A DNA stretch of 12,894 nucleotides from Candidatus Pacearchaeota archaeon CG10_big_fil_rev_8_21_14_0_10_35_13 (GTDB taxonomy: Archaea > Nanobdellota > Nanobdellia > Pacearchaeales > GW2011-AR1), in the NCBI GenBank assembly GCA_002763035.1, contig PFDC01000063.1:1-12894 (forward strand), read 5' to 3'. This document shows, one piece after another, positions 1 to 12,894 of this stretch. How positions within the stretch are numbered: position 1 is the first letter of the stretch; each line of letters starts with the position of its first letter. A model generated the notes under the pieces. The model was not told where the DNA came from, searched no databases, and saw only the letters and a program-made list of their open reading frames with translations. Both the position numbers and the translations under genes were made by a program.

Positions 1-80
1 GCCTCGAGCAGGAATCGAACCTGCGCACCCCGAAGGGTCCGGATTAGCAATCCGGTGCAATACCATTATGCGATCGAGGC
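1..80 (-). tRNA. tRNA-Ser (anticodon GCT)
   Basis: Read on the minus strand this folds as a class II tRNA. It has a 7-bp acceptor stem (GCCTCGA/TCGAGGC), a 3-bp D stem (GCA/TGC), and an anticodon stem CCGGA/TCCGG around loop TTGCTAA, giving anticodon GCT for serine AGC/AGT codons. The extra arm is ACCC-TTCG-GGGT, a 4-bp stem closed by a UUCG tetraloop. The T arm is GCAGG-TTCGATT-CCTGC. The long variable arm agrees with serine. The 5' end is at 80; the 3' acceptor strand ends exactly at base 1, so the discriminator base and any CCA lie outside the window. A TATA-like CTTTTTAAG at 103-111 (minus sense) sits at promoter distance upstream. Confidence 0.95.
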
Positions 81-102
81 ATGATAATGATAGAAACGTA
101 GG

Positions 103-111
103 GCTTAAAAA
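103..111. promoter_or_regulatory. TATA-like element between tRNA-Ser and cardiolipin synthase, possibly bidirectional
   Basis: CTTAAAAAG here reads CTTTTTAAG on the other strand. It lies about 25-30 bases upstream of the tRNA-Ser 5' end (80) and about 50 bases upstream of the cls ATG (158). No other good TATA box is visible between the two genes, so one box may serve both directions. This is inferred from position only. Confidence 0.45.
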
Positions 112-157
112 GTTTGTTATACTAAATAAAAATGAGAAAAGGTGAAAAAAATGTAAT

Positions 158-1603
158 ATGGAATTAATAACAATTATTTGGTTAAGCACAGTAATAATAG
201 TAGCATTATACATCATAAGCGTAATATTCTACTTATTACTAGACAACAGAAGCCCAGAAACAACAATAGCATGGGTAATGATAATACTAACACTACCAAT
301 AATAGGACTACTAGCATACTTATTCTTAGGAAAAAACTGGAGAAGAAAAACAAGAAAGATGCTCAAAGAAAGAAGAAATACAGAAAACAGAATAAAAACA
401 TTCCTTAAAGGATACAAAGAATTACACGAAGCAACAATAAAAAACATAGAAGGAGGGGGAATACACCCACAAACCATAGAACTAGTAAACCTGTTAAGAA
501 GGAACTCCGGAGCATTAATAACAGCAGATAACGAAGTGAAAATAATACAAAAAGGAATAGAAAAATTCGAATTATTAATGAAAGACTTAGAAAAAGCAAA
601 AAAACACATACACCTAGAATACTACATATGGAAAAGTGATGAGTTAACAAAGAAAATACACGAAATACTAATAAGAAAAGCAAAAGAAGGAGTAGAAGTA
701 AGACTAATGTACGACGCAATAGGAGGAAAAGGATTCAAGAACAAAGACAAGAAAGAATTAAGAAAAGCAGGAATAAAAGTTAGAGCTTCATCAACAAAAC
801 TACAAACACTGAATTATAGAAATCACAGAAAGGTAGCAGTAATTGACGGAAGAATAGCATACGTTGGAGGAATGAACGTAGCAAAAGAATACATTGACGG
901 AGGAAAAAAGTTCAAGAAATGGAGAGACACACACCTAAGAATTACCGGAAGCGAAGTATTAACAATACAAGGAATATTCATAGTATCATGGTACAGACTG
1001 ACAAACGAAGAATTATTCTCAAACAAATACTTCCCTAAACCAGAAATTACAGGAAAAACATTACTACAAACAACAACTTCAGGACCAGACAGCAAATGGG
1101 AAGCAGTAAAACAACTATACTTCTCACTAATAAACTCCGTAGACAAATACATCTACTTAGAAACACCATACTTCCTACCAGACGAAAGCATTAATATGGC
1201 ACTAAAAACTGCAGCCCTAAGAGGGCTAGACGTAAGAATAATAATCACCGGAGTCCCAGACTACAAAGTAGCATACCATGCATCAAAAACATTTTATAAA
1301 GGACTATTAGAAGCAGGAGTAAGAATTTACGAATACATGGAAGGATTCATGCACTCAAAAACTTTAGTACTAGACGACGAAATATCGACCGTAGGGACAG
1401 CAAACCTAGATCCCAGAAGCTTCACACTAAATTATGAACTAAACACACTAATAATAGACAAAAAAAAAGCCCTAGAACTAAAAAAGACTTTTAACGAAGA
1501 CCTAAAAGGATGTAAAGAAATAACCCTACGAAACGTAGAAAGCTGGGGCATTATAAGCAGGATAGGACACTCAATAGCAAGACTATTCGCACCATTACTA
1601 TAA
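158..1603 (+). CDS. cls: Cardiolipin synthase, phospholipase D family
   Basis: This 481-residue membrane enzyme probably joins two phosphatidylglycerol-like lipids (archaetidylglycerol in archaea) into a cardiolipin-type lipid; the substrate is inferred. Residues 1-28 and about 36-57 are two membrane segments with the typical short N-terminal domain of bacterial-type Cls (SPETTIAWV... ending in a Gly before a basic stretch). Two HKD motifs follow: H223-x-K225-x4-D230 (HRKVAVID) and H399-x-K401-x4-D406 (HSKTLVLD). Each is followed by a G/N-rich phospholipase D tail (YVGGMN; GTANLDPRS). The length matches the Cls family. The ATG at 158 is preceded by GGTGA at 141-145, a plausible Shine-Dalgarno site. 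The stop overlaps by six bases the convergent stop of the minus-strand gene ending at 1598. Other PLD-type transphosphatidylases are possible, but the N-terminal domain favours Cls. Confidence 0.87.
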   Translation: MELITIIWLSTVIIVALYIISVIFYLLLDNRSPETTIAWVMIILTLPIIGLLAYLFLGKNWRRKTRKMLKERRNTENRIKTFLKGYKELHEATIKNIEGGGIHPQTIELVNLLRRNSGALITADNEVKIIQKGIEKFELLMKDLEKAKKHIHLEYYIWKSDELTKKIHEILIRKAKEGVEVRLMYDAIGGKGFKNKDKKELRKAGIKVRASSTKLQTLNYRNHRKVAVIDGRIAYVGGMNVAKEYIDGGKKFKKWRDTHLRITGSEVLTIQGIFIVSWYRLTNEELFSNKYFPKPEITGKTLLQTTTSGPDSKWEAVKQLYFSLINSVDKYIYLETPYFLPDESINMALKTAALRGLDVRIIITGVPDYKVAYHASKTFYKGLLEAGVRIYEYMEGFMHSKTLVLDDEISTVGTANLDPRSFTLNYELNTLIIDKKKALELKKTFNEDLKGCKEITLRNVESWGIISRIGHSIARLFAPLL

Positions 1604-2095
1604 CTTACCAAACTTATCCAAAAAAGAATCAAACAAGTACGAATTATCACCAACACGAACCTCAAAAAACTTATGAATCATCAAACCTCTAGAAAGAGTA
1701 ATTCTCTCATGAAAATCCCCCTCAGAGAACTGACCAGTACTAATAAGTAAAGACTTAGCAACAAGGGACTGAAGATGACAAGGAAGGAACTGATCATTAA
1801 GAATAAGCTTATCAGCACTAATATAGAAATGCTTATAGAACTGTAGGTAGAGATAATAACGCTCATTAGAAAAATGGTCATTCATAAAAACATAAACGTT
1901 AGTAAGAGTCTGAAGTTGATTATCAGCCCTAAGACTCAGAGAGACATTTGCTAAATCATCACCAGTACCAATATGATGAGGGAAGAAAAAACCAGGAAAA
2001 AAGAAGTAAGGAATAACTATTGTGAATAAAGAGATAGTTATAACTAAAAGAATTAAATAAAAAAACCATTTTAACAGAAGTTCACCTCTTACCAT
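1598..2095 (-). CDS. Hypothetical single-pass membrane protein
   Basis: I do not recognise this protein. The call uses the ATG at 2095 (165 residues); a TTG two codons upstream is the only other near start. Residues about 9-33 are very hydrophobic (WFFYLILLVITISLF and onward), giving an N-terminal signal anchor with most of the protein probably outside the membrane. The remainder is ordinary soluble-looking sequence with one Cys and no motif I can name. Its start overlaps the end of the upstream gene (stop at 2082) by 14 bases, so the two are probably translated together. A GGTGA lies just after the ATG rather than before it, so the true start is not certain. The stop codon overlaps convergently with cls. 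T-ending codons match the other minus-strand genes, which supports real coding. Confidence 0.5.
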   Translation of the reverse strand: MVRGELLLKWFFYLILLVITISLFTIVIPYFFFPGFFFPHHIGTGDDLANVSLSLRADNQLQTLTNVYVFMNDHFSNERYYLYLQFYKHFYISADKLILNDQFLPCHLQSLVAKSLLISTGQFSEGDFHERITLSRGLMIHKFFEVRVGDNSYLFDSFLDKFGKL

Positions 2096-2300
2096 CAACA
2101 ATTTTCTCAGCTTTAATAATCATACCATTCTTCAAACCAATAAAAACACCACCATCAATACCCTGAACGAAAGAAGCCTCACCAGGATCAATAATACTAT
2201 TCAACTCATCAAGCTCAATAAACATCAGCCTTACCAAGGAAAAACTTACCACCACCAGGACCACCCATGAAAATATCAAGACAACAAACTTTAAAAGCAT
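2082..2300 (-). CDS. Hypothetical small membrane protein
   Basis: A 72-residue frame starting at ATG 2300. Residues 1-27 form a strong hydrophobic segment, followed by a short polar domain (DELNSIIDPGEASFVQGID, then a Lys-rich end). It would be an anchored partner of the next gene, which it overlaps by 14 bases. The frame is open further upstream, but that would run into the initiator tRNA at 2323-2397, so the ATG at 2300 is preferred. Reasons for doubt: its first codons coincide with the likely promoter of the tRNA on the other strand, and no TATA box is visible at the right distance for this start. It could be a chance frame, or the 5' part of a gene displaced by rearrangement. Function unknown. 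Confidence 0.35.
   Translation of the reverse strand: MLLKFVVLIFSWVVLVVVSFSLVRLMFIELDELNSIIDPGEASFVQGIDGGVFIGLKNGMIIKAEKIVDGKR
2289..2297 (+). promoter_or_regulatory. Probable TATA box of initiator tRNA-Met
   Basis: CTTTAAAAG lies about 26-34 bases before the tRNA 5' end at 2323, the usual spacing for an archaeal promoter of a tRNA with little or no 5' leader. It falls inside the first codons of the predicted minus-strand gene 2082-2300. Confidence 0.5.
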
Positions 2301-2322
2301 AACTATCGCTATAACCTTGTAG

Positions 2323-2397
2323 AGCGAGGTGGAGCAGCCCGGAGTGCTCGCGAGGCCCATAACCTCGAGGTCGGTGGTTCAAATCCACCCCTCGCTA
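2323..2397 (+). tRNA. Initiator tRNA-Met (anticodon CAT)
   Basis: The cloverleaf is complete. The acceptor is AGCGAGG/CCTCGCT with A1:U72 and discriminator A73. The D arm is GAGC-AGCCCGGAGT-GCTC. The anticodon stem is CGAGG/CCTCG around loop CCCATAA. The variable loop is AGGTC and the T arm is GGTGG-TTCAAAT-CCACC. A1:U72, A73 and the TTCAAAT loop are hallmarks of archaeal initiator tRNA, so this is the initiator and not the elongator. No CCA is encoded. Two positions are odd. Base 33 is C instead of the nearly universal U. The top of the three initiator G:C pairs in the anticodon stem (29:41) is A:U. A T-rich stretch at 2401-2410 follows and could terminate transcription. Confidence 0.95.
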
Positions 2398-2398
2398 T

Positions 2399-2410
2399 AC
2401 TTTTCTTCTC
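2399..2410 (+). terminator. T-rich terminator after initiator tRNA
   Basis: The pyrimidine run ACTTTTCTTCTC starts two bases after the tRNA. Oligo-T stretches are the usual intrinsic terminators in archaea. It is short and interrupted by C, so the call is moderate. Confidence 0.4.
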
Positions 2411-2429
2411 TAGAAAGTTGTAAGAACAA

Positions 2430-2438
2430 TATATAAAC
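2430..2438 (+). promoter_or_regulatory. TATA box of rnhB
   Basis: ATATATAAA in an AT-rich spacer is centred about 26 bases before the rnhB ATG at 2460, so the mRNA is probably leaderless. No Shine-Dalgarno sequence is seen before that ATG. Confidence 0.55.
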
Positions 2439-2459
2439 TAATAATTCATAAAAAAATTG

Positions 2460-3134
2460 ATGGTAATTATAGGAATAGATGACGCAGGAAGAGGACCAGT
2501 AATAGGACCAATGGTACTAGGAGGAGTGATGATAGAAAAAATAACAGAAGAAAAACTCAAAGAATTAGGAGTAAAAGACAGCAAGATGCTATACCCAAAA
2601 CAAAGAACTAAGATGAAAAAAGTGATAGAAGAAATAAGCAAAGGAAGCAAAGCAGTAATTATGACAGCTAAAGAAATAAACGATTACATGGACAAAAACA
2701 TTAACTTGAACACTATAGAAGCAATAGCAGCAGCACAAGTAATAAACTACTTACTAAAAGAAAAAGAAGAAGAAGTAACAATAATACTAGACTGCCCATC
2801 AGTAAACACCAAAGCATGGCTAGAAAGAGTAAAGGAATTCATGATAAGAAAAGAAAACGTGAAGTTTATATGCGAACACAAAGCAGACCAAAACTATGTA
2901 GTAGTAGGAGCAGCAAGCATAATAGCCAAAGTAACAAGAGACGAAGAAATAAAAAAACTCAGAGAGAAAATAGGAAAAGACTTCGGAAGCGGATACCCAA
3001 ACGACCCAAAAACTAAAGAATTCCTAAAAGAACATTATAAAGAATACCAAGAAGAAGAAATATTCAGAAAACACTGGAGCACTATAACAAGACTAACAGA
3101 AGAAAAGACCGGAATACAAAAGAAACTCTACTAA
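2460..3134 (+). CDS. rnhB: Ribonuclease HII
   Basis: This enzyme cuts RNA in RNA-DNA hybrids and single ribonucleotides in DNA, and so supports primer removal and DNA repair. The 224-residue protein shows the archaeal RNase HII order: GIDDAGRGPVIGPMV at residues 5-19, GVKDSKML about 38-45, LDCPSVN with D111, HKADQNY with D143, then AASIIAKVTRD, GSGYPNDPKT and HWSTI near the C-terminus. Aligned with characterised archaeal enzymes (for example the T. kodakarensis D-E-D-D set), the catalytic acids are D7, D8, D111 and D143. The second acid, normally Glu, is Asp here. The ATG at 2460 is chosen over a TTG one codon upstream because a TATA box at 2430-2438 fits a leaderless start. It stands alone, convergent with the next gene. 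Confidence 0.95.
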   Translation: MVIIGIDDAGRGPVIGPMVLGGVMIEKITEEKLKELGVKDSKMLYPKQRTKMKKVIEEISKGSKAVIMTAKEINDYMDKNINLNTIEAIAAAQVINYLLKEKEEEVTIILDCPSVNTKAWLERVKEFMIRKENVKFICEHKADQNYVVVGAASIIAKVTRDEEIKKLREKIGKDFGSGYPNDPKTKEFLKEHYKEYQEEEIFRKHWSTITRLTEEKTGIQKKLY

Positions 3135-3165
3135 TAATATTATAACAAGAAAGAACCATTAACCA

Positions 3166-3174
3166 CAAAAAAAC
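3166..3174 (-). terminator. T-run terminator of the 3196-3477 gene
   Basis: On the minus strand this reads GTTTTTTTG, seven T in a row about 22 bases after the stop codon at 3196, typical of archaeal intrinsic termination. On the plus strand it is an A-run between two convergent genes. Confidence 0.5.
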
Positions 3175-3195
3175 AATAAATTTATTATAAAATAC

Positions 3196-3477
3196 TTATT
3201 TCTGTAATAAATCATCAAGAACACTAGACTTACGAACATCAGACTTGCGAACATCAGAACCACTAAAAAGAGTACTATAAAGATTATGAAGCCTTAAAGA
3301 ATAAGGATCAAGGGAAACAGGAACATTACCACCTGGAAGACTTTGAGAATTAAAAGCATAACCATCAGGCACTGGAAGCCTTCTAGAAGCATCAGGACTA
3401 TTAATAGAAACACCAGCACAAACCATACCTAAACCAGACACTACCATAACATAAGATAAAAAATTATTCTTAACCAT
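3196..3477 (-). CDS. Small exported or anchored hypothetical protein
   Basis: I do not recognise this 93-residue protein. It begins with a short basic N-terminus (MVKNNF) and a hydrophobic stretch at about residues 6-23 that ends in small residues (MVCAGVS). This looks like a signal peptide or signal anchor; the Cys could even be a lipid-attachment site, but the fit is weak. The mature part is polar and Pro/Ser-rich, and ends in a direct repeat SDVRK-SDVRK made by two copies of a 15-base unit. A TATA-like TTTATTTA (minus sense) about 26 bases before the ATG suggests a leaderless mRNA, and a T-run follows the stop. T-ending codons match other minus-strand genes. These signals support a real gene, though its small size leaves doubt. 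Confidence 0.55.
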   Translation of the reverse strand: MVKNNFLSYVMVVSGLGMVCAGVSINSPDASRRLPVPDGYAFNSQSLPGGNVPVSLDPYSLRLHNLYSTLFSGSDVRKSDVRKSSVLDDLLQK

Positions 3478-3498
3478 AAAATAATTTAGTATTATGAG

Positions 3499-3507
3499 TA
3501 AATAAAG
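3499..3507 (-). promoter_or_regulatory. TATA box of the 93-residue protein gene
   Basis: TTTATTTA on the minus strand is centred about 26 bases before the ATG at 3477, consistent with a leaderless start. It lies in the 130-base divergent spacer shared with smc. Confidence 0.45.
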
Positions 3508-3579
3508 GTTGTTATAAAGAAATTAATTATGCAACAAACAAACATAAGTCATAAGAACAAAAAAACATAATAGCAATTC

Positions 3580-3588
3580 TTAAATATA
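3580..3588 (+). promoter_or_regulatory. TATA box of smc
   Basis: TTAAATATA is centred about 24 bases before the smc ATG at 3608. No Shine-Dalgarno site is visible, so a leaderless smc mRNA is likely. Confidence 0.6.
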
Positions 3589-3607
3589 CACTAATTCTGT
3601 AATAAAT

Positions 3608-6600
3608 ATGCCCTTCATAGAAAAATTGGTGATGAAAGGATTCAAGAGCTTCTCAAGCGAATCAACAATACCATTCAGTAACGGAATGAACGCCGTAGTA
3701 GGACCAAACGGATCGGGGAAATCATCGCATTATGATACCCTAGTAACCCTCGATAATGGTAGAGAAATTAAGCTAGGAAAACTTGTTGAAGACCAACTAA
3801 AAAGAACAAAAACTCACAAAAAATTAGACGACGGAATCTACGCTGATGGTACCTTAAAAGAACCAATAACCATACTATCATTAAATAAAAGAACTATGAA
3901 AGCTGAACCAAAGATTGTGACTAAATTTATAAAAAGAGAAGGGGAAGAACTTTATAAGTTAAGAACTGTAAGCGGGAAAGAAGTAAAGGCTACAGGTTGT
4001 CATCCTGTGATGTCCTTCAAAGAAGGAGAGGTTAGGAGCCTATTAATAAGTGAATTAAAACAAGGAGATCTTATTGCCTCACCAAGGATAATTAAAACTA
4101 AAGGGAATATAGGCATTAACCATGAAATTTTTAGGATCATGGGCTACCTCATAGGTGATGGTTATATAGCAAGAGATAGAATAGAGTTTGTGAATCAGGA
4201 CAAAGAGGTATTAGGGGACTTTAGGAAATTAATGAGTGAACACTACACAAAAGACTTAAAAATAAGAAGAGAGAAAAGTGTTGAAAGAATATACTTAAGA
4301 GATGTCAAAACAGTGAAAACGATTAGAGATTACTTCATAAAAGATTATGATAAATCTATAACTTCTAAAGTAAAAAAAATACCTGAAGACTTATTAGAGG
4401 GAAACAACCAATGTGTTGCTAATCTTCTAGCCGGGCTTTATGACACTGATGGTAGCGTAAGAAAAAACATACCTGTTATTGAATACTGCACTAAGAACAA
4501 AGAACTCGCTAATCAAGTTCAAGGACTGCTATTAAGGTTTGGAATAATGTCTAAAATTAAAAAAAGGATGTGCGTGGCTACTAATACCACAGAGAAGATA
4601 AAGGGGGAATACTACTACATTTATATCTACGGCAAGGAAAACTTAGAGAAATTCTACGATAATATCAAGCTGAGAATTATGAGAAAGAGAGAGATTATCA
4701 AACATCATTTAGACAAGAGGACTACCCCAAATCCAAATACTGATATTCTCCCAGCTGAAACTAACGATTATGTGAAAGAAATCGCTTCTTTATTAGGAAT
4801 TAAGGCTAAACCATTAAGAAAAGATTATCCCCTACTTTCAGCGTACATAGAAAAACGTTGTCTGCCTACAAGAAGTGGGATATTAAGATTACTTCAGATC
4901 TTCAAGAAGAAACTTTTATCATTAAAAGAAAACTATAACTCCTTATCAATGAACCAGTTACCCCTGGTAGAATGTATGGATAACCTTAATTTATCTGGTC
5001 AGAGCACATCATTAAACCTTGGATTATCAAGAGGAACAATTAGAGATCGCTGGGCTACAAATAAGTTTAATCCGAAACCAGAGAACTTACAAAAATTCCA
5101 TGATTATATCAAGAATATCTTTGAGTACAGGCTGGCTAAAATTAAAACTTTAATGACACTATTAAACAATCTCGCTAATTCAGACATTTATTGGGATAAA
5201 ATAATATCAATAGAAAAACTTCCAAAAGAGGAATGGGTTTATGACTTAACTATAGAGAATAATCACAATTTCATAGCAAATAACATCTTTGTTCATAACA
5301 GCAACATCACAGACGCAGTATGCTTCGTACTAGGAAGACTAAGCATAAAAAGCCTAAGAGTAGCAAAAGCAGCTAATCTAATATTCGCAGGAACAAAAGA
5401 ACACAAACCATTCAGTGAAGCAACAGTAAAAATAGTATTTAATAACGAAGACGGAGGACTATCAATAAACACTAAAAGTGTAGAAATACAAAGAACAGTA
5501 AGGAGAACAGGACAAAGCATCTACAAAATAAACAAAGAAACAAAGACCAGAGGAGAAGTACTAGAACTACTAACACAAGCAGGAATAGACCCCTACGGAT
5601 TCAATATAGTACTACAAGGAGAAATAATGGACTTAGTAAAGATAGGACCAGAAGACAGAAGAAAAGTAATAGAAGAAGTAGCAGGAATAAGCGTTTATGA
5701 AACAAGAAAGAACAGAAGCCTAAAAGAATTAGAAAAAACCGAAGAGAAACTCAAAGAAATAAACGCCATACTAAGAGAAAGAACAGCATACATGAAAAAC
5801 TTAGAACAAGAAAGACAACAAGCACTAAAATACCAAAGACACGAACAAAACGTGAAGAAATACAAAGCAAGCATTATAGAAAGACAAAGAGGAGAAAAAA
5901 CTAAAGAACTAGAAAGAATAAACCAAGAAATAGAAAAGAACAATACAACAAAAGAAAAACTTAAAGAAAAACTAACAAAACTAAGAGAAGAACTAATAAT
6001 TAGAGAAAAAGAAACTAATGAAATAAACGATTACACACAAAAAAGTTCTGGAATAGAAATGGAATCGTTACATGAAGCAATCACTAATCTAAGAGCAGAA
6101 CTAGCAGGACTAGAAGTAAAAAAAGACAATAATGAACACCGACTAGAAGAAATGCTTAGACGTAGAGAAAACCTTAAGACAAACATAAAAAATTACGAAG
6201 AAGAAATAACCATGCTAAAAAAGAAAAGTCCAATAATGGAACAGAAAATAAAAGAACTAGAAAAGAAAAAGAAAGAACTAGAAGCAGTAGAAGAAAAAAG
6301 AAAAAGTTATTACGGGATGAAAACAGAACTAAACTCCATAAGAACAAGAACACAAGACAAACTAGGCCAACTACAAAGAGTAAAAGGAGAAACAGAATAC
6401 ACCATTAAAGAAATAGAAAGACTAGCAGAAGGACTAACAAGTAAAGAAACAGAATCATGCCGCAAAGAAATACAAAAAATAAAAGATGAAAACGTTAAAC
6501 TAATAGAAGAAACCGAAGAAAAAGAACAAGTAAGAAGAGAAATAGAAAGAACACTAACAATCTATGATAGAGAAATAAATGAGAATAAAGACATAAAGAA

Positions 6601-8050
6601 ACAAGTAAGCGAAATAGACACCTGTCCATTATGTAAGAATAAGATGACCGAGAAACACTTAGAAGAAGTATACAACGAATGTGACAACAAAATAAATAAT
6701 TCAGAAAAATCCCTCACTGAAAGCGAAGATAAACTACAAAAAATAAAAGGAGAAACTACAAAAATAAGAGAAAAATTGTTATATAACAACGAACTGCTAG
6801 AAAAGAAAAACCAAGAATTAGTAAGACTAAACAGCATTAACGAAAAGAAAGAATACATAAAAAAATATTATGTTCAAGAGAAGACCTTAGAAGAAGAGAT
6901 TGAGACCTTAGAAAAGAAGAAGAAAACCCTAGAAAACGAAAACAACAATAATAAAGAAGTAGAAGAATTATATGACAAACTATTAATGGAAATAGAAGAC
7001 ATATCATCAAGAACAGAAAATAATATAGACACAGAACTAAAATTCAAACAAAGAGACTTAGACCAAACAAGAAACATAATAAAACAAACATTCCGTGATG
7101 AAGAAGAATTAAGCACCGAAATAGAAGAACTAAAGAATAATTATGATAACAAAAATAAAGAACTAAAAAAGAAAGAAACACAAGAACAAGAACTACAAAA
7201 GAAATACCAAAAACTCTTTGAAAAGAGAGCAAAACTACAAAAAGAATCATATGAAATAAGTAATCAAACAATAGGATTAGAACATGAAATAAGAAACAAC
7301 GATGATAAGATAAACAATCAAAAGATAGAATGGGCAAGAACTGACGCAGAAATACAAAACTTAAACGTAGAAATAAGCGAATATGAAGGGATAGAAATAA
7401 TAAATATGCCAGTAGATAAGCTAAGAGCTAAACTACAAGAAACACAAGAAATGCTCATAAGAATAGGAAACGTTAATATGAGAGCATTAGAAGTATACGA
7501 AGGAGCAAGAGAAGAATACGAAAAAGTATCAATAAAAGCAGAAACGCTAAACAATGAAAAAGAAGAAATAATGAAAGTAATAGAAGTAATTGACAAGAAA
7601 AAGAAAAGAACATTCATGAAAACCATGGACTCAGTGAATGAATTATTCACGAGAAACTTCTTACAACTAAGCACTAAAGGACAAGCATTCCTAGACCTAG
7701 AAAACAAAGAAGACCCATTCGCAGGAGGACTAAATATCATAATAAGGGTAGCTAGAGGAAAATACTTTGATGTATCAAGCCTATCAGGAGGAGAAAAAAC
7801 CCTAGTAGCACTATCACTAATATTCGCAATACAAGAATACAAACCATACCCATTCTACATATTTGACGAAGTAGACGCCGCGTTGGACAAAAGAAACTCA
7901 GAAAAACTAGCATCACTAATAAAGAAACATATGAAAACAGGACAATACATTGTAGTAACACACAACGACGCATTAATCACAGAAAGCACAATACTATATG
8001 GAATAAGCATGCAAGACGGAATAAGCAAGGTATTAAGCCTAAGAATATGA
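3608..8050 (+). CDS. smc: SMC chromosome protein with intein in Walker A and a Rad50-like zinc hook
   Basis: This is an SMC ATPase precursor of 1480 residues. Removing the intein (39-564) leaves a 954-residue protein that would dimerise and act in chromosome folding or segregation. The N-terminal head is typical SMC: KGFKSF, Walker A GPNGSGK(38)/S(565) joined by splicing, NITDAVCFVLG, LIFAGT and Q-loop VLQGEIMDLV (Q670). Two coiled-coil arms span about 700-1000 and 1015-1290. The C-terminal head has NVNMRAL, signature LSGGEK (1392-1397) and Walker B YIFDEVDAALD (D1420, E1421). The FDEVDAALD form marks SMC, not Rad50. Between the arms is CPLC (1006-1009) followed by KNKMTEKHLEEVY, like the zinc hook of Rad50, and no globular SMC hinge is recognisable. 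The protein is short for SMC (usually about 1150-1200), as expected without a hinge. The ATG is placed by the conserved N-terminus and a TATA box. The stop TGA begins a 56-bp tandem array. Confidence 0.95.
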   Translation: MPFIEKLVMKGFKSFSSESTIPFSNGMNAVVGPNGSGKSSHYDTLVTLDNGREIKLGKLVEDQLKRTKTHKKLDDGIYADGTLKEPITILSLNKRTMKAEPKIVTKFIKREGEELYKLRTVSGKEVKATGCHPVMSFKEGEVRSLLISELKQGDLIASPRIIKTKGNIGINHEIFRIMGYLIGDGYIARDRIEFVNQDKEVLGDFRKLMSEHYTKDLKIRREKSVERIYLRDVKTVKTIRDYFIKDYDKSITSKVKKIPEDLLEGNNQCVANLLAGLYDTDGSVRKNIPVIEYCTKNKELANQVQGLLLRFGIMSKIKKRMCVATNTTEKIKGEYYYIYIYGKENLEKFYDNIKLRIMRKREIIKHHLDKRTTPNPNTDILPAETNDYVKEIASLLGIKAKPLRKDYPLLSAYIEKRCLPTRSGILRLLQIFKKKLLSLKENYNSLSMNQLPLVECMDNLNLSGQSTSLNLGLSRGTIRDRWATNKFNPKPENLQKFHDYIKNIFEYRLAKIKTLMTLLNNLANSDIYWDKIISIEKLPKEEWVYDLTIENNHNFIANNIFVHNSNITDAVCFVLGRLSIKSLRVAKAANLIFAGTKEHKPFSEATVKIVFNNEDGGLSINTKSVEIQRTVRRTGQSIYKINKETKTRGEVLELLTQAGIDPYGFNIVLQGEIMDLVKIGPEDRRKVIEEVAGISVYETRKNRSLKELEKTEEKLKEINAILRERTAYMKNLEQERQQALKYQRHEQNVKKYKASIIERQRGEKTKELERINQEIEKNNTTKEKLKEKLTKLREELIIREKETNEINDYTQKSSGIEMESLHEAITNLRAELAGLEVKKDNNEHRLEEMLRRRENLKTNIKNYEEEITMLKKKSPIMEQKIKELEKKKKELEAVEEKRKSYYGMKTELNSIRTRTQDKLGQLQRVKGETEYTIKEIERLAEGLTSKETESCRKEIQKIKDENVKLIEETEEKEQVRREIERTLTIYDREINENKDIKKQVSEIDTCPLCKNKMTEKHLEEVYNECDNKINNSEKSLTESEDKLQKIKGETTKIREKLLYNNELLEKKNQELVRLNSINEKKEYIKKYYVQEKTLEEEIETLEKKKKTLENENNNNKEVEELYDKLLMEIEDISSRTENNIDTELKFKQRDLDQTRNIIKQTFRDEEELSTEIEELKNNYDNKNKELKKKETQEQELQKKYQKLFEKRAKLQKESYEISNQTIGLEHEIRNNDDKINNQKIEWARTDAEIQNLNVEISEYEGIEIINMPVDKLRAKLQETQEMLIRIGNVNMRALEVYEGAREEYEKVSIKAETLNNEKEEIMKVIEVIDKKKKRTFMKTMDSVNELFTRNFLQLSTKGQAFLDLENKEDPFAGGLNIIIRVARGKYFDVSSLSGGEKTLVALSLIFAIQEYKPYPFYIFDEVDAALDKRNSEKLASLIKKHMKTGQYIVVTHNDALITESTILYGISMQDGISKVLSLRI
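3722..5299 (+). mobile_element. LAGLIDADG homing-endonuclease intein in smc
   Basis: This in-frame intein of 526 residues covers residues 39-564 of the precursor. Block A starts with Ser39 (SSHYDTLVTLDNG, with D5 and T6 of the block conserved). Block B is T129-G-C-H132. The endonuclease motifs are IMGYLIGDGYI (catalytic D184) and LAGLYDTDG (catalytic D281). Block F is VYDLTIENNHNF, and block G ends in His563-Asn564 before Ser565, the +1 nucleophile. All splicing residues look intact, so it should splice itself out and leave GPNGSGK-SNITDA. Both endonuclease acids are present, so it may still home into empty smc alleles. An extra region at about 380-525 includes an HTH-like segment (459-482). 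Base use differs clearly from the flanking smc sequence, which points to horizontal acquisition. Confidence 0.95.
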
Positions 8051-8216
8051 TTAAGTTATTATTTGTGCAAGACGGAATAAGCAAGGTATTAAGCTTAAGA
8101 ATATGATTAAGTTATTATTTGTGCAAGAAGGAATAAGCAAGGTATTAAGCTTAAGAATATGATTAAGTTATTATTTGTGCAAGAAGGAATAAACAAATTG
8201 CTTAGTCTAAGGATTC
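8011..8216 (+). repeat. 56-bp tandem repeat of the smc 3' end
   Basis: Three near-identical 56-bp units lie at 8011-8066, 8067-8122 and 8123-8178. They differ at two positions: offset 7 reads C, C, A and offset 29 reads C, T, T. A diverged fourth copy of about 38 bases starts at 8179. Each unit starts with the last 13 codons of smc and adds about 16 bases of 3' flank. There are no variable spacers, so it is not CRISPR. The fourth copy runs into the 3' end of the convergent gene 8202-8792. Confidence 0.95.
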
Positions 8217-8254
8217 AGCAATATAACCAACAAGACCTGAGATTTCCCTCATAA
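8047..8254 (+). other. Chain of three micro-ORFs with ATGA overlaps after smc
   Basis: Because of the 56-bp period, each stop TGA overlaps an ATG as ATGA at 8047, 8103 and 8159. This gives open frames 8047-8106 (19 residues, MIKLLFVQDGISKVLSLRI), 8103-8162 (19 residues, the same with E for D) and 8159-8254 (31 residues, starting MIKLLFVQEGINKLLSLRI). ATGA overlaps often allow translational coupling. It is not known whether any peptide is made; by parsimony they are by-products of tandem duplication. Confidence 0.3.
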
Positions 8255-8792
8255 GAACACGCTTCTTATCACCAAAATCAGCAATACCGCGATTTTCTGC
8301 ATCAAGCCTTAACTCTCTAGCAAGAATCCTCACATCATTTAAACCAATCTTCTCAAGATGTTGCCTAACAGCCTCAAAAGTAACACCTATCTTACCAGTA
8401 ACAAGATTCCTAACTCTAGAACCGATCTCCTTAAGACTAAAACCCTCATAAGCCAACCTCTCAATATCAGGACGCCTAATAACTCTACAAGGAACAGGAA
8501 AGTCAAGACCTGACTCATGAATATACTGATACGCCCTAGCCCTACAAACGCCTCTACGTTCTATAACCCCCAAAGCCTCATCAAGATTAGCACCCTCCTC
8601 ATGAAGCTTGAGAACCTGCGCCCTATGACTATCACCCTTTAATGGGACAGCAATACCAAACTTTCTAATATCATAATGAACCTTTCCATAAGTTAACCCA
8701 AGGGTTGAACAAATCTCTTTAATATAATGACCTTTAGAAGCAAGCCGCTCAATAGCCTCCCTCCTTTTCTGATAATTAACCTGTAATTTCAT
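8202..8792 (-). CDS. Putative DNA-binding protein with three HTH-like units
   Basis: A 196-residue soluble protein that I cannot assign to a named family. Three successive segments look alike and fit a helix-turn-helix: about 10-46 (ERLASKGHYIKEICSTLGL, then KVHYDIRKFGI), 55-96 (LKLHEEGANLDEALGVI, then AYQYIHESGL) and 107-151 (ERLAYEGFSLKEIGSRV, then AVRQHLEKIGL). Each has a helix, a turn at about 'G-x-x-hydrophobic-x-E', and a recognition-like helix ending in a short hydrophobic tail. A C-terminal helical region (about 155-196) follows. The most likely role is sequence-specific DNA binding, perhaps regulation; nothing shows a catalytic function. A TATA-like element about 24 bases before the ATG suggests a leaderless mRNA. 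Its 3' end overlaps the last, diverged copy of the smc repeat. A strong inverted repeat lies upstream at 8890-8950. Confidence 0.72.
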   Translation of the reverse strand: MKLQVNYQKRREAIERLASKGHYIKEICSTLGLTYGKVHYDIRKFGIAVPLKGDSHRAQVLKLHEEGANLDEALGVIERRGVCRARAYQYIHESGLDFPVPCRVIRRPDIERLAYEGFSLKEIGSRVRNLVTGKIGVTFEAVRQHLEKIGLNDVRILARELRLDAENRGIADFGDKKRVLMREISGLVGYIAESLD

Positions 8793-8810
8793 AAGACTAT
8801 AATGGTAAAG

Positions 8811-8824
8811 CCATATAATAAATT
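8811..8824 (-). promoter_or_regulatory. Probable TATA box of the triple-HTH gene
   Basis: The minus-strand sequence ATTTATTATATGG is centred about 24 bases before the ATG at 8792, which fits a leaderless start. A second consensus box, TTTATATA (minus sense, 8868-8875), lies further upstream and would give a leader of roughly 50 bases. Confidence 0.45.
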
Positions 8825-8889
8825 AACTATTGACCTATAAGAGATCTTACGATTTCTTAATTCTTAGTATATAAATTATAAAGGGTAAT

Positions 8890-8950
8890 GCTAAGCTCAT
8901 TACTAATCATTGCTTATAACTATCATAATCATAAGGTTATGAGCGTTAGC
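8890..8950. repeat. Imperfect inverted repeat / long stem-loop
   Basis: The left arm GCTAAGCTCAT (8890-8900) pairs with the right arm ATGAGCGTTAGC (8939-8950) as 11 base pairs with one bulged base. A nested 5-bp pair, CTTAT (8913-8917) with ATAAG (8931-8935), lies inside. It sits between the T-rich end of the surface-protein gene and the promoter of the HTH gene, so it could be an operator, a 3' stabilising hairpin or a small RNA. Confidence 0.6.
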
Positions 8951-8962
8951 GAATTAAATTGT

Positions 8963-8997
8963 AAAAAACTAATAACAAATAAAAAAGAAAATAAAAA
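8963..8997 (-). terminator. Oligo-T terminator of the surface-protein gene
   Basis: On the minus strand, T-runs of five and six occur at 8993-8997, 8981-8986 and 8963-8968, starting about nine bases after the stop codon at 9006. Clustered T-runs are typical archaeal intrinsic terminators. Confidence 0.6.
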
Positions 8998-9005
8998 GAT
9001 TGTTT

Positions 9006-10226
9006 TTAGTAGTAACTTTCTCCGAATTCTTCGGACTTTTGAGGTTTCCTAGTAAGCAGTACTATAAGTATAACCAATAGTACAACGAAGACTATGGCCA
9101 ATACTACGGTAAGTACTACCGCGTTGCTACCAGCAATGCTACCAGTAACATTAGCAGTAAATGGAACTCTCTTAACAAGAGCACCATTGCTATTGACATT
9201 GACTCCGAAGTTATAGGTTCCAGAGTTATCAGCACGAACAGTTATTGAAACTGTCTTGCTGCTCATAGGACCAACAGTAACTACTGGTTCATTAGCTCTC
9301 ACTAACAAGCCACTAGCACTTTCCGGAATTATCTCGTAAGTCTTGACATTACTGCCAGAATTCACAAGAATCAAGTCATAAGTAATCTCGCTACCCTTGC
9401 TGAAGTCCTTAATAGCTGAGGAGGTCAATACTTCACTAGCCATTTCAGTACCAGAAACAACCAATTTCTTGGTCATACTTGTAACTGAATCAACTGTTGA
9501 AGCTTCGATTACTAGGTCATAAACTCCAGAAACGGCATTGGAAGGAACGACTAAGTTCAATCTACCAAGAACTGCATCTTCCTTACCATTGTCCTTACTG
9601 TCCTCATCAAGAGGGGTTATGTCCCCGAAGTAAGCACGCTTTTCAACACCAAGTTCAGGAATACTTACCTTAACAAAGGTGTCATCAAGCCTGTTGAATC
9701 CTCTATTCTTAAGAACCACATCAATACTCAAGGCGTTACCAGCACTAACTGTTCTGCTGAATTCAACTGAAAGGATTTCTATGTTGTAAGATTCTCTCTG
9801 AAGCATCAAAGGGAAACTTTCTTCATGATATCCTGTACCAGTCTCAATTCTTACGAACAAAGTGAATCTTTCAGAAGGGTCGATATCTGAAGGAAGTCTC
9901 AAAGCTAAAGTTTTGGCGTAAGTACTACCGTTCAATAATTCGAACCTACTAGTAGAATCCACTATGTCAGTTCTGTAACCACTAATCCAGGCCTTAACCT
10001 TAGCATCAGAAGCATCATCAAGAGCTGAGAATACGACCTTTAAAGGAAGTACATCGCCAGCATTACCAGCAATACTGCTGATACCTGAAGACACATCGAC
10101 GCCGTTAATGGTAGCCTTGAAATCAGTAACTGCAAGGTTCCCAGTACTTAATGCACTAACTGCACCAAATACTGTTAACATTGAGATAACTGCTAACATG
10201 GAAACCAAAAATGTTTTGTTTATCAT
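9006..10226 (-). CDS. S-layer-like surface protein with C-terminal membrane anchor
   Basis: This 406-residue protein is probably exported and held in the cytoplasmic membrane, facing outward as a cell-surface or S-layer-associated component. Residues 1-26 are a signal peptide (MINKTFLVSMLAV onward, ending AVSALS). Next come three beta-rich domains at about 27-150, 151-262 and 263-365. The second and third resemble CARDB/NEW3-type Ig-like folds (LSIDVVLKNRGFN; ITYDLILVNSGSNVKTYEI; GPMSSKTVSITVRADNSGTY), as in the archaeal COG1361 S-layer-type group. About 368-392 is one long Val/Leu membrane helix, then a short tail (RKPQKSEEF...YY). Sequons such as NGST and NVTG suggest glycosylation. A strong BRE/TATA promoter (10276-10290) and mixed synonymous codons hint at high expression. 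The exact family is inferred from pattern, not an alignment. Confidence 0.83.
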   Translation of the reverse strand: MINKTFLVSMLAVISMLTVFGAVSALSTGNLAVTDFKATINGVDVSSGISSIAGNAGDVLPLKVVFSALDDASDAKVKAWISGYRTDIVDSTSRFELLNGSTYAKTLALRLPSDIDPSERFTLFVRIETGTGYHEESFPLMLQRESYNIEILSVEFSRTVSAGNALSIDVVLKNRGFNRLDDTFVKVSIPELGVEKRAYFGDITPLDEDSKDNGKEDAVLGRLNLVVPSNAVSGVYDLVIEASTVDSVTSMTKKLVVSGTEMASEVLTSSAIKDFSKGSEITYDLILVNSGSNVKTYEIIPESASGLLVRANEPVVTVGPMSSKTVSITVRADNSGTYNFGVNVNSNGALVKRVPFTANVTGSIAGSNAVVLTVVLAIVFVVLLVILIVLLTRKPQKSEEFGESYY

Positions 10227-10275
10227 TTTGGGTTTTGTTTTAACAAATTTAGTTATAATACATACAGAATAACGC

Positions 10276-10290
10276 TTTATAAACTTTGCG
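10276..10290 (-). promoter_or_regulatory. BRE plus TATA promoter of the surface-protein gene
   Basis: The minus strand reads CGCAAAG then TTTATAAA, a near-consensus archaeal TFB-recognition element followed directly by a TATA box. The expected start of transcription is near 10255, leaving a leader of about 28 bases before the ATG at 10226. No Shine-Dalgarno site is visible in that leader. This is the best-matching promoter in the window. Confidence 0.75.
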
Positions 10291-10417
10291 ATAGTAACAG
10301 ATTTGGGTCACTCTCAAGTAGTAGTGATTTTCTTGGAACTATTTACCATGTTATCCGGCTTAGGTAACAACATTAAATATTCTTAACTACCTGCTGGTAA
10401 CTATAACCTCTTTACCA

Positions 10418-10882
10418 CTATATGATTCTTTGAAACTCGTCGCTAACTTGACCAATATTCTCTAGAAGGTATGAATGCATTTTACCAATAAGCACTGACT
10501 GTATTCCTTCCTTCAATTTTCCAGTACACAAATCAATATCTCTTTGCGGAGACTCAACAACACCCAGAGGAAGACTACAAACCATGTCCTTACCATTCAA
10601 CCCCTCAAGTTCTGAACTACCACTACGCAACTGTAATAACTTAACATAAACCACACAATTATCACCGCTATTACCCTCAATACGATAATACCAATCAGCA
10701 GTATCACTAGTCTTAATGAATGATGCACTAGAACAAGCACTCAATGAATCACTAAAACAATCATCATCATTACATGCCTCAACATACAATAATCTAAAAA
10801 ATATCATACTAACAGCTACTGCTGTAACAATGAAGAATAATACTAGTAGTATCACAACCCTTTTATCAGACAAAAAACCCAT
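10418..10882 (-). CDS. Cys-rich single-pass membrane protein, unknown function
   Basis: A 154-residue protein not assignable to a named family. Residues 1-8 are short and basic, and about 9-31 form a membrane segment (VVILLVLFFIVTAVAVSMIFF), so the rest should lie outside the cytoplasm. The outer part carries seven cysteines (ACNDDDCF, LSACSS, DNCVVY, MVCSLP, DLCTGK), a number and spacing that suggest disulfides. It reads as a small beta-rich domain followed by a helical C-terminus. It starts 43 bases after the stop of the 10926-11288 gene. A TATA-like TTTTTAAA (minus sense, 10904-10911) about 25 bases before the ATG suggests its own leaderless mRNA. It could be an envelope or pilus-related accessory protein; that is only a guess from topology. 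Confidence 0.68.
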   Translation of the reverse strand: MGFLSDKRVVILLVLFFIVTAVAVSMIFFRLLYVEACNDDDCFSDSLSACSSASFIKTSDTADWYYRIEGNSGDNCVVYVKLLQLRSGSSELEGLNGKDMVCSLPLGVVESPQRDIDLCTGKLKEGIQSVLIGKMHSYLLENIGQVSDEFQRII

Positions 10883-10903
10883 GATAAAACTAAGAGTGAA
10901 GTG

Positions 10904-10911
10904 TTTAAAAA
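10904..10911 (-). promoter_or_regulatory. TATA-like box of the Cys-rich membrane protein gene
   Basis: TTTTTAAA on the minus strand is centred about 25 bases before the ATG at 10882, in the 43-base spacer after the upstream gene. Confidence 0.45.
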
Positions 10912-10925
10912 GGTTATCTTAACTA

Positions 10926-11288
10926 TCAGAATAAGCGCCACCCAGTAACTCTAGAAGCAAGGTCCTTAACATGTTTAGGACTAATGCCCCTATCATAAGT
11001 ACTACTACAACCATTAAATATTGCCATTCTTCCTTCAGGGAAAAGATTACAAAAACCAGCACCACAAAGAACATAAGGAGAATCATCAGGAAGCTTAGGA
11101 ATCCCCTCATCATCATAAGTTGTAACAACTCCAAATTCATCAGCAAAACCTAAAAGAATAGTAGAATGATTACCACTAGAAACATCATGGCTAAACCTCA
11201 ATAACGGAGCATTATCGGGACCATAGAACTGCAAGACCTTGTACCTGCCCTCATTATCAGGCCAATTAACCAGCGGAATATTACTCAT
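10926..11288 (-). CDS. Hypothetical soluble protein
   Basis: I do not recognise this 120-residue protein. It has no signal peptide or membrane segment and looks cytoplasmic. The sequence is rich in Gly, Asp, Pro and aromatic residues, with a stretch LCGAGFCNLFPEGRMAIF about residues 74-91 and a conserved-looking end (GISPKHVKDLASRVTGWRLF). Two Cys in CGAGFC could bind metal, but no second pair is clear. The gene starts 39 bases after the dnaG stop on the same strand and may be co-transcribed with dnaG. A TATA-like ATTTATTAATT about 25 bases before the ATG also allows its own leaderless mRNA. T/G-ending codons agree with its minus-strand neighbours, which supports real coding. Confidence 0.58.
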   Translation of the reverse strand: MSNIPLVNWPDNEGRYKVLQFYGPDNAPLLRFSHDVSSGNHSTILLGFADEFGVVTTYDDEGIPKLPDDSPYVLCGAGFCNLFPEGRMAIFNGCSSTYDRGISPKHVKDLASRVTGWRLF

Positions 11289-11307
11289 GAAGAGATGTTC
11301 TAATAAG

Positions 11308-11320
11308 AATTAATAAATAT
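11308..11320 (-). promoter_or_regulatory. TATA-like box of the 120-residue protein gene
   Basis: ATATTTATTAATT on the minus strand is centred about 26 bases before the ATG at 11288 and lies between the dnaG stop and that start. It suggests independent transcription in addition to any read-through from dnaG. Confidence 0.4.
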
Positions 11321-11327
11321 TACTATA

Positions 11328-12542
11328 CTAAATATTCAATAACCTAATCTTAGTATCCATTCTAGAAAAGCCCTTAGCAGCAATATAATGAATACCCCTA
11401 CTCTCAGAAGCACGAATGATACTAGGAGTAGCATTACCATCAACAATTACACAAAATATTGGTTTCTCAGTACGATTAATAACTGTAGAAGCACTACGAA
11501 CACTCATACTACTAATTATTTCAATCTTATCATTAATTATTAACACAATACCCTTACCACTAACCTCACCAGCTAAGGAATTAATCTTCTTAATATCATC
11601 AGTACTTAATTCACGAAAAGGAAAATTCTCAAGACTATCCTGAGAATAGGAGGAGCGAGGGCGGGAACCGCCTCTCGAATAACTACTCCTACGATCTCCA
11701 TAACCCCTATCTCTATTCTCACTGTAAGAACTCTCATAACTCTGAGAAGAAACCTTCTTCCTCAAAGCCTGAAGTATCTCCTTACCAGTAAGTTCCTCAA
11801 CTTCCTTACCATCAGGCGCAAAAGCAACAAAGTTAACACTTGCGTTATCCATAACATTCCTCACGATAAGCTTACCACCACGATCACCATCAACGAACAG
11901 AATAATCGTCTTAGACTTACTCAATTCCTTAACAGCTTCTGGAAGTTTAGTACCATTCATAGCAATAACATTACTAACATTATTCTTTAAAAGATTAATA
12001 ACATCAGCCCTACCTTCAACAACGATTACTTCATCACCAGACAAATCACCTGATGGAAGTTTCTCATCACCATACTCTTGAAGCTTATCAATCTTAACAG
12101 AAGTCTTAATACTATCAGCTATTTCCTTACCACTATCATTATTACCATCTATTTGTTCTAGTAATTTCTTAGCACGTTCAAGAATGTAATCACGCTTACT
12201 ACCACGAACATCCTCAACCTTACTAACCTCTATCTTAGAATCACTAGGGCCAATACGTTCAATAGTTTCAATAGCAGCACCAATAATAGTAGTCTCAGCC
12301 TTATCAAGAGCTGAAGGAATACTAATACTACCAGTAGTCTTACTACCCTCATGAGATAATTCTACATCAATCCTACCAATCTTACCTTCCTTCTGAAGTT
12401 CACGCATTTCAAGATCACTACCCAAAAGTCCTTCGGTCTGACCAAAAATGGCACCGATAACATCAGGCTTCTCCAAACGCCCCTCAGCGGAAAAAGTGGC
12501 ATGAATCATGTACTTAATCGATACTGGACTAATTTTTGCCAT
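11328..12542 (-). CDS. dnaG: Archaeal DNA primase DnaG (TOPRIM)
   Basis: Archaeal DnaG is a TOPRIM protein found with the RNA exosome and able to make primers. The 404-residue protein opens with the archaeal signature MAKISPVSIKY and the conserved KPDVIGAIFGQTEGLLG and LQKEGKIGRIDVE. The TOPRIM domain shows VEGRADV with E176 and VDGDRGG with D218 and D220, the expected catalytic and metal-binding acids. A linker at about residues 270-310 is rich in Ser, Tyr, Arg and Gly. The C-terminal domain (about 311-404) ends RMDTKIRLLNI. The ATG at 12542 is chosen over a TTG seven codons upstream because GGAG lies about eight bases before it and the family starts there. The length is normal. It leads a minus-strand cluster with two small unknown genes. 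Confidence 0.96.
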   Translation of the reverse strand: MAKISPVSIKYMIHATFSAEGRLEKPDVIGAIFGQTEGLLGSDLEMRELQKEGKIGRIDVELSHEGSKTTGSISIPSALDKAETTIIGAAIETIERIGPSDSKIEVSKVEDVRGSKRDYILERAKKLLEQIDGNNDSGKEIADSIKTSVKIDKLQEYGDEKLPSGDLSGDEVIVVEGRADVINLLKNNVSNVIAMNGTKLPEAVKELSKSKTIILFVDGDRGGKLIVRNVMDNASVNFVAFAPDGKEVEELTGKEILQALRKKVSSQSYESSYSENRDRGYGDRRSSYSRGGSRPRSSYSQDSLENFPFRELSTDDIKKINSLAGEVSGKGIVLIINDKIEIISSMSVRSASTVINRTEKPIFCVIVDGNATPSIIRASESRGIHYIAAKGFSRMDTKIRLLNI

Positions 12543-12550
12543 AATTTTTT

Positions 12551-12555
12551 CTCCT
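12551..12555 (-). promoter_or_regulatory. Shine-Dalgarno site that decides the dnaG start
   Basis: The minus strand reads AGGAG here, eight bases before the ATG at 12542. It lies inside the seven-codon extension from the upstream TTG, which argues for the ATG. A TATA-like TAAATAAATT at 12571-12580 lies further upstream. Confidence 0.6.
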
Positions 12556-12736
12556 AAGCTCAATGCTTAAAATTTATTTAATTTTGTTAAAGAAATAATC
12601 ACTGCGCTCATCAAGAGCCCGAAAGCCCTAAAAAACCCCTAATAACAACAGGTTTTTACTGAACATGATTTTGTGAAATGATGTGATGTAATAATCGAAG
12701 ACTATTTCTCTCAACAAAAAAGGGAAAGAATGCAGG

Positions 12737-12745
12737 TTTATAAAA
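12737..12745 (+). promoter_or_regulatory. Orphan TATA box, plus strand
   Basis: TTTATAAAA matches the archaeal box A. It would start a transcript near 12767, in a locally GC-richer segment with no clear reading frame, so a small RNA is a possibility. Confidence 0.45.
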
Positions 12746-12827
12746 TCTTCGGTGGGGATGCTCAGACAAAGTGTCCCAGATGAGGGGTGGTTATCTTTTA
12801 GTTATATACTAGAGTTTCCGAATTTAA

Positions 12828-12837
12828 CTTATAAATA
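12828..12837 (+). promoter_or_regulatory. TATA-like box near the right edge
   Basis: CTTATAAATA would direct plus-strand transcription from about 12858 into the sequence beyond the window. Confidence 0.35.
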
Positions 12838-12894
12838 CCTCCTCAAACTTTTCTAGTCGTTTTGGCTTGCTTTCAATAAATACAATCTCTCTGA

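Follow-up and report, generated by a model that had tools for sequence, protein, structure and literature searches.

A hingeless SMC protein with a putative Rad50-type zinc hook from an archaeon of the order Pacearchaeales

Can a chromosomal SMC protein carry a Rad50-type zinc hook at the place where a hinge is expected? This question is raised by an smc gene in a DNA stretch of 12,894 nucleotides (the window; contig PFDC01000063.1, positions 1 to 12,894) from Candidatus Pacearchaeota archaeon CG10_big_fil_rev_8_21_14_0_10_35_13, which belongs to the family GW2011-AR1, order Pacearchaeales, class Nanobdellia. An earlier note, made from the sequence alone, had described the encoded protein as an SMC with a Rad50-like hook motif at the midpoint of its coiled coil and no hinge. 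Our analysis indicates that this protein is very probably the SMC of the chromosomal Smc-ScpA complex, in which a Rad50-type zinc hook has taken the place of the globular hinge. The hook SMC is real, conserved and unusual, and is a new SMC variant.

SMC heads, a Rad50-like apex and the missing hinge

The smc open reading frame (ORF; 3608..8050, forward strand, as are all its parts described below) encodes an SMC-type ATPase of 1480 amino acids, including an in-frame intein. In Pfam it matches SMC_N (161.6 bits), Intein_splicing (99.1 bits) and LAGLIDADG_3. Among 42 NCBIfam families SMC_prok_A ranks at the top with 502.6 bits, a score below the equivalog cut-off of 729.4. The N-extein (3608..3721) contains GFKSF (3638-3652) and the Walker A motif GPNGSGK (3701-3721). 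The LAGLIDADG intein (3722..5299, residues S39-N564) lies within Walker A, which is completed after splicing by a serine at 5300-5302. The C-extein (5300..8047) comprises the rest of the N-terminal head, both arms, the hook and the C-terminal head, with the ABC signature motif LSGGEK at 7781..7798 and the Walker B motif FDEVDAALD at 7862..7888. GFKSF, LSGGEK and FDEVDAALD had also been named in the earlier note. A PDB profile search returned Smc chains with up to 526.6 bits, and the best Rad50 reached 62.1 bits.

In silico splicing yields a protein of 954 amino acids with a single CPLC at residues 480-483, at the coiled-coil apex, which is the position given earlier. The CPLC (6623..6634; ORF residues 1006-1009), containing the proposed zinc-hook cysteines, is in frame and belongs to an apex loop, DTCPLCKNKMTEKH (6617..6658), that is out of helix in the model. 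It is flanked by an N-terminal arm of 263 residues (5834..6622) and a C-terminal arm of 277 residues (6635..7465), with approximate limits taken from the arm measure and the model helices.

The resemblance of this apex to the Rad50 hook, proposed in the earlier note, is supported by profile comparison. The apex profile matches a Rad50 hook profile with an E-value of 8.1e-19, whereas arm segments from these proteins give 7.6e-4 and 0.03; with both cysteines masked, the apex still gives 1e-12. The top two of 345 PDB matches of the apex profile are the Pyrococcus furiosus Rad50 hook chains 6zff (2.9e-6) and 1l8d (1e-5). Of 81 apex segments, 52 have a match to Rad50_zn_hook (PF04423) with E ≤0.01 (best 8.9e-8). 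The segment from the window scores 18.5 bits (E 0.0018), which is below the cut-off of 24.3, and the Rad50 of the same genome, with 19.9 bits, likewise falls under it. No Rad50_zn_hook was listed for the whole smc ORF by a Pfam scan with E up to 10, in which HMMER filters remove most matches above 0.1. AlphaFold2 predicts a helix-hook-helix hairpin for the apex (pLDDT 96.8), and chain 1l8d_B superposes at 2.5 Å over 100 columns. VIA-align was discarded as non-discriminating, with many coiled coils of unrelated proteins reaching the same scores.

The hook motif is highly conserved. The best 80 of 412 confirmed loci were kept as named relatives, the nearest being a Candidatus Pacearchaeota archaeon with 58% identity, and a central CPxC is found in 80 of the 80, which argues that the CPLC is not due to chance. 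In 81 apex segments excised around the motif and aligned over 217 columns, the only invariant columns are C, P and C. Several other positions of the loop are nearly invariant (H in 80, T in 79 and D in 77 segments). Most of the kept loci carry the label Candidatus Pacearchaeota and others Nanoarchaeota, Nanoarchaeia or archaeon, with two exceptions labelled Aenigmarchaeum and Patescibacteria, which may be mislabelled bins. In Rad50, two hooks share one zinc, and the affinity of its hook for zinc has been described as very tight (PMC6969161). Motif, position, conservation and predicted fold together suggest that the CPLC apex is a putative zinc hook of this kind.

A hinge is missing from the protein. 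SMC_hinge gave no match in the smc protein in a Pfam scan of the same depth and none in its genome, in agreement with the earlier view that neither arm contains a hinge. In the same kind of scan, four of four hinge-type relatives of the class scored 90-108 bits. In the model of a full-length relative (L070), strands of at least three residues are absent from the stretch of residues 168 to 830, and no hinge-like strands are present. None of 199 genomes of the order has an SMC_hinge over the cut-off. The possibility of a hidden or split hinge was rejected: the sole weak match in the order (19.4 bits) sits in a 311-amino-acid ORF that matches Pfam CofD with 288 bits and was therefore taken as a false positive. 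By our count, a sample of 234 genomes of the class consists of 49 from the order and 185 from outside it. SMC_hinge is present in 167 of the 234, every one listed being outside the order. As 167 of the 185 outside genomes are positive, hinge detection works where a hinge exists. The remaining 18 comprise 12 with no SMC match and six with weak or partial matches, one of them a fragment at a contig end.

The hook SMCs have median arm lengths of 264 and 277 residues (97 sequences). The corresponding medians in hinge SMCs are 291.5 and 302 residues, with a hinge stretch of 139.5 residues; these values come from ten long members of the class and leave out three unparsed hinge SMCs and three short-armed ones. 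The arms of the hook SMCs are somewhat shorter and nearly symmetric, suggesting that the hook occupies the place of about 140 hinge residues. Three hinge SMCs from families f51 and f29 have much shortened arms of 169-202 residues in proteins of 894-945 amino acids, and a fourth protein is like them and cut at a contig end.

Distribution, phylogeny and genomic surroundings

SMC was found in 52 of the 56 panel relatives. By manual reading of 33 genomes of the same family, 29 have a hook-bearing SMC, three have no SMC match and one has a 48-amino-acid fragment. Among 19 genomes from other families of the order, eight have a hook, eight have a full-length SMC of about 800 amino acids without CxxC, two have pieces and one has no match. 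The four panel genomes from outside the order have an SMC without CxxC and with a Pfam hinge. The apex profile matches at least 192 of the 199 genomes of the order; this number was not used as a count of hook SMCs because Rad50 hooks can match as well.

A tree of head domains (76 rows) separates Rad50 from SMC with a support of 100 and places the window protein among the hook SMCs; the branch between SMC and Rad50 is very long, and the program gave a warning on long branches. Such a tree had been proposed before with coalescin and Sph included. The SMC placement was obtained, and coalescin and Sph were compared by profile score only. Neither of the two results that the earlier note had named as refuting, a hinge match between the arms or a position inside Rad50, was obtained. 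In a more careful tree containing only SMCs (43 rows), the 27 hingeless rows (19 with a hook and eight with neither module) form one clade with a support of 100/99. Together with the absence of a hinge over the cut-off in the order, against 167 of 185 genomes outside it, this clade supports the suspected distinct archaeal SMC branch. Within it, a hookless f7 pair branches as sister to the remaining 25 rows (100/96); family f7 lies outside the hingeless clade in the quick 76-row tree. The hook label requires three changes on the SMC-only tree, which implies either that the hook was gained at the base and subsequently lost in places, or that the hinge was lost first, the hook gained next and then lost in places.

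A third type of SMC is found in eight loci of the same order. These proteins have 782-810 amino acids, no hinge and no CxxC, and from their sequences they appear to have a helical apex of their own. Their tips match between families f4 and f6 (E 1.7e-10), and no match was found between f7 and f4. Elsewhere, eight of nine sampled genomes of family f13 have no SMC match and the ninth has a weak one. Two of the SMC-negative genomes are single contigs with a completeness of 94-95%, and this lineage may be without SMC.

The genome also encodes partners of both systems. ScpA is found in a 307-amino-acid ORF with 60.7 bits (60.4 in a second scan; cut-off 24.6), and in the order it is present in 178 of 199 genomes, in 169 of them over the cut-off. 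ScpB was not found by search in this genome, which is 82% complete; it is present in 53 of the 56 panel genomes. Doubt has been raised whether archaeal ScpB binds ScpA (PMC7055376). A separate Rad50 is encoded on contig C178 by a 735-amino-acid ORF with AAA_23 (65.7 bits) and its own CPTC, and is preceded by an ORF for a calcineurin-like phosphoesterase (Metallophos, 49.4 bits), which we read as a putative Mre11. Rad50 ORFs with their own CPxC are present in seven of the seven genomes of the order that were read. Profile scans detected no kleisin or Mre11 among the other window ORFs they covered, some small ORFs being outside the scans; the smc gene has no mre11 neighbour in the window, and the phosphoesterase-Rad50 pair is elsewhere.

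The remaining ORFs of the window include a PLD-like protein, RNase HII, a weakly helix-turn-helix-like ORF and a Toprim protein, which is presumably DnaG-like. A 196-amino-acid ORF (8202-8792, reverse strand) lies directly beyond smc in convergent orientation, with weak helix-turn-helix matches under the cut-offs. A tandem repeat of 56 bp (3.3 copies, 97% match, 8010-8196) begins within the 3' end of smc and passes its stop codon. The only ARAGORN call in the window is a tRNA-Met (2323-2397); positions 2-80 of the reverse strand resemble a tRNA-Ser (GCT) by eye and received no call. The Walker A intein site is likewise occupied in eight relative loci, some of which possibly represent one genome twice. 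The C-terminal junction is HN/SN in all eight and the N-terminal junction GPNGSGK/ in three of them, and in two relatives with the same insertion site the intein begins with Cys.

Alternative explanations and significance

Because the hinge was searched for and is absent, the hook SMC is not classed as a canonical SMC, and because its heads are not of the Rad50 type, it is not classed as Rad50. It is very improbable that the protein only resembles SMC and in fact belongs to Rad50 or to the coalescin/Sph type (ASRP). Its hook motif is like those of these families and it matches the Rad50 and ASRP models over their whole length, but the scores of 71 bits for Rad50 (NF003034) and 114.8 bits for ASRP (NF045487, cut-off 300) are far under the cut-offs of both. 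A Rad50 identity was dismissed on the NCBIfam scores, the PDB profile search and the head tree, and an ASRP identity on its score. The genome moreover has its Rad50 beside a Mre11-like phosphoesterase elsewhere, and ASRP is over the cut-off in none of 119 genomes of the phylum, just three of which are from the order. No plasmid record labelled ClsN or Sph was found among 40 of 54 records listed.

The presence of CPxC on both proteins in the same cell could also suggest that SMC and Rad50 pair through their hooks, coupling chromosome folding to break repair. This heterodimer is improbable, as the loops of SMC and Rad50 differ in the four genomes where both were read: CPLCKNKMTEKH and CPTCLRNVDNDY in the genome of the window, CPLCQSKMTQEH and CPTCLQDVPDRH in G026, CPLCKSKITEEH and CPTCLQEIKEEY in G011, and CPTCLRVIDDAA and CPKCKQIVPQQH in G039. 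The Rad50 of the window's genome is also shorter. We regard as equally improbable that CPxC serves the tip as a redox switch or holds a structural zinc there, with dimerization through the arms or heads. The hookless, hingeless SMCs of the order speak for such an arrangement, since they must dimerize, if at all, without a CPxC site. However, C, P and C alone are invariant in the apex, each chain offers two ligands as in Rad50, and both profile and predicted shape match the Rad50 hook.

A more serious alternative keeps the function proposed here and holds that the hook arose on the SMC arm by convergence; we consider this possible but rather doubtful. The motif is short, and the position of the hookless f7 as sister to the other hingeless SMCs means that the hinge may have gone before the hook was gained. 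On the other hand, the flanks are alike, several Rad50 rows having LD ahead of the motif and [IV]TxxH behind it, the similarity persists when the cysteines are masked, and the SMC hook of G039 (CPTCLRVID) resembles the Rad50 hook of the window's genome (CPTCLRNVD). These likenesses point to a Rad50 gene as the probable source of the hook, through recombination. For the order as a whole, the balance leans slightly towards a history in which the hinge was lost and the hook of a Rad50 gene adopted, so that ring closure of the resulting condensin depends on one zinc, and several families acquired a helical apex module instead.

With a zinc hook in place of the hinge, two SMC chains would meet at the tips of their arms, where the CPxC motifs of both would bind one zinc. 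ATP-driven engagement of the SMC heads, together with the ScpA kleisin, would close the ring at the opposite end. The replacement of hinge by hook would have occurred early in the order. Zinc binding, homodimerization, ScpA binding and a role in chromosome folding would accordingly be expected of the hook SMC.

This protein bears on possible functions of the SMC hinge beyond dimerization, for example in DNA binding, as a gate or in loading. A natural hingeless lineage that keeps SMC heads, long arms and ScpA speaks strongly, on comparative grounds, for the dispensability of the hinge fold itself, as already suggested by engineered chimeras (PMC5344682, PMC6969161). If our interpretation is true, SMC can exchange its dimerization module and yet retain heads, arms and kleisin. 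Three apex types (hinge, hook and helical tip) in one archaeal class offer material for tests of loop extrusion and of the DNA entry gate. They also raise the question of how SMC and Rad50 hooks escape mispairing within one small cell.

Comparison with known systems

Searches of titles, abstract openings and passages in open literature, which covers only a minority of subscription papers and bioRxiv preprints, found no natural hook-bearing SMC, so priority is not certain. Within this coverage, exchange of a hinge for a Rad50 hook was found described only in engineered proteins, with two papers on hinge/hook swaps, one for each direction (PMC5344682, PMC6969161). The hook SMC shares heads, motifs, long antiparallel arms and an ScpA gene in the genome with the canonical Smc-ScpA and ScpAB systems, and differs in lacking a hinge and in its somewhat shorter arms relative to the ten long class members with a hinge. 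It shares with the Rad50 hook (PF04423; 1l8d, 6zff) the CPxC at the coiled-coil apex, similar flanks and the predicted hook loop; unlike Rad50, it has SMC heads and no Mre11-like neighbour in the window, and a separate Rad50 is present in the genome.

ASRP, or coalescin ClsN/Sph, is likewise an archaeal protein of the SMC superfamily with a zinc hook, and Rad50 and ASRP have been named as zinc-hook families (PMC9389158). The hook SMC, in contrast, scores as SMC and, with 954 amino acids, is longer than the 593-position ASRP model. A parallel in design is the engineered Smc(Zh) of Bacillus subtilis, in which SMC heads and arms are combined with a P. furiosus Rad50 hook replacing the hinge, and which supported growth on rich medium (PMC5344682). 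Smc(Zh) is a functional protein made in the laboratory, whereas the hook SMC is natural and common to many genomes of one order.
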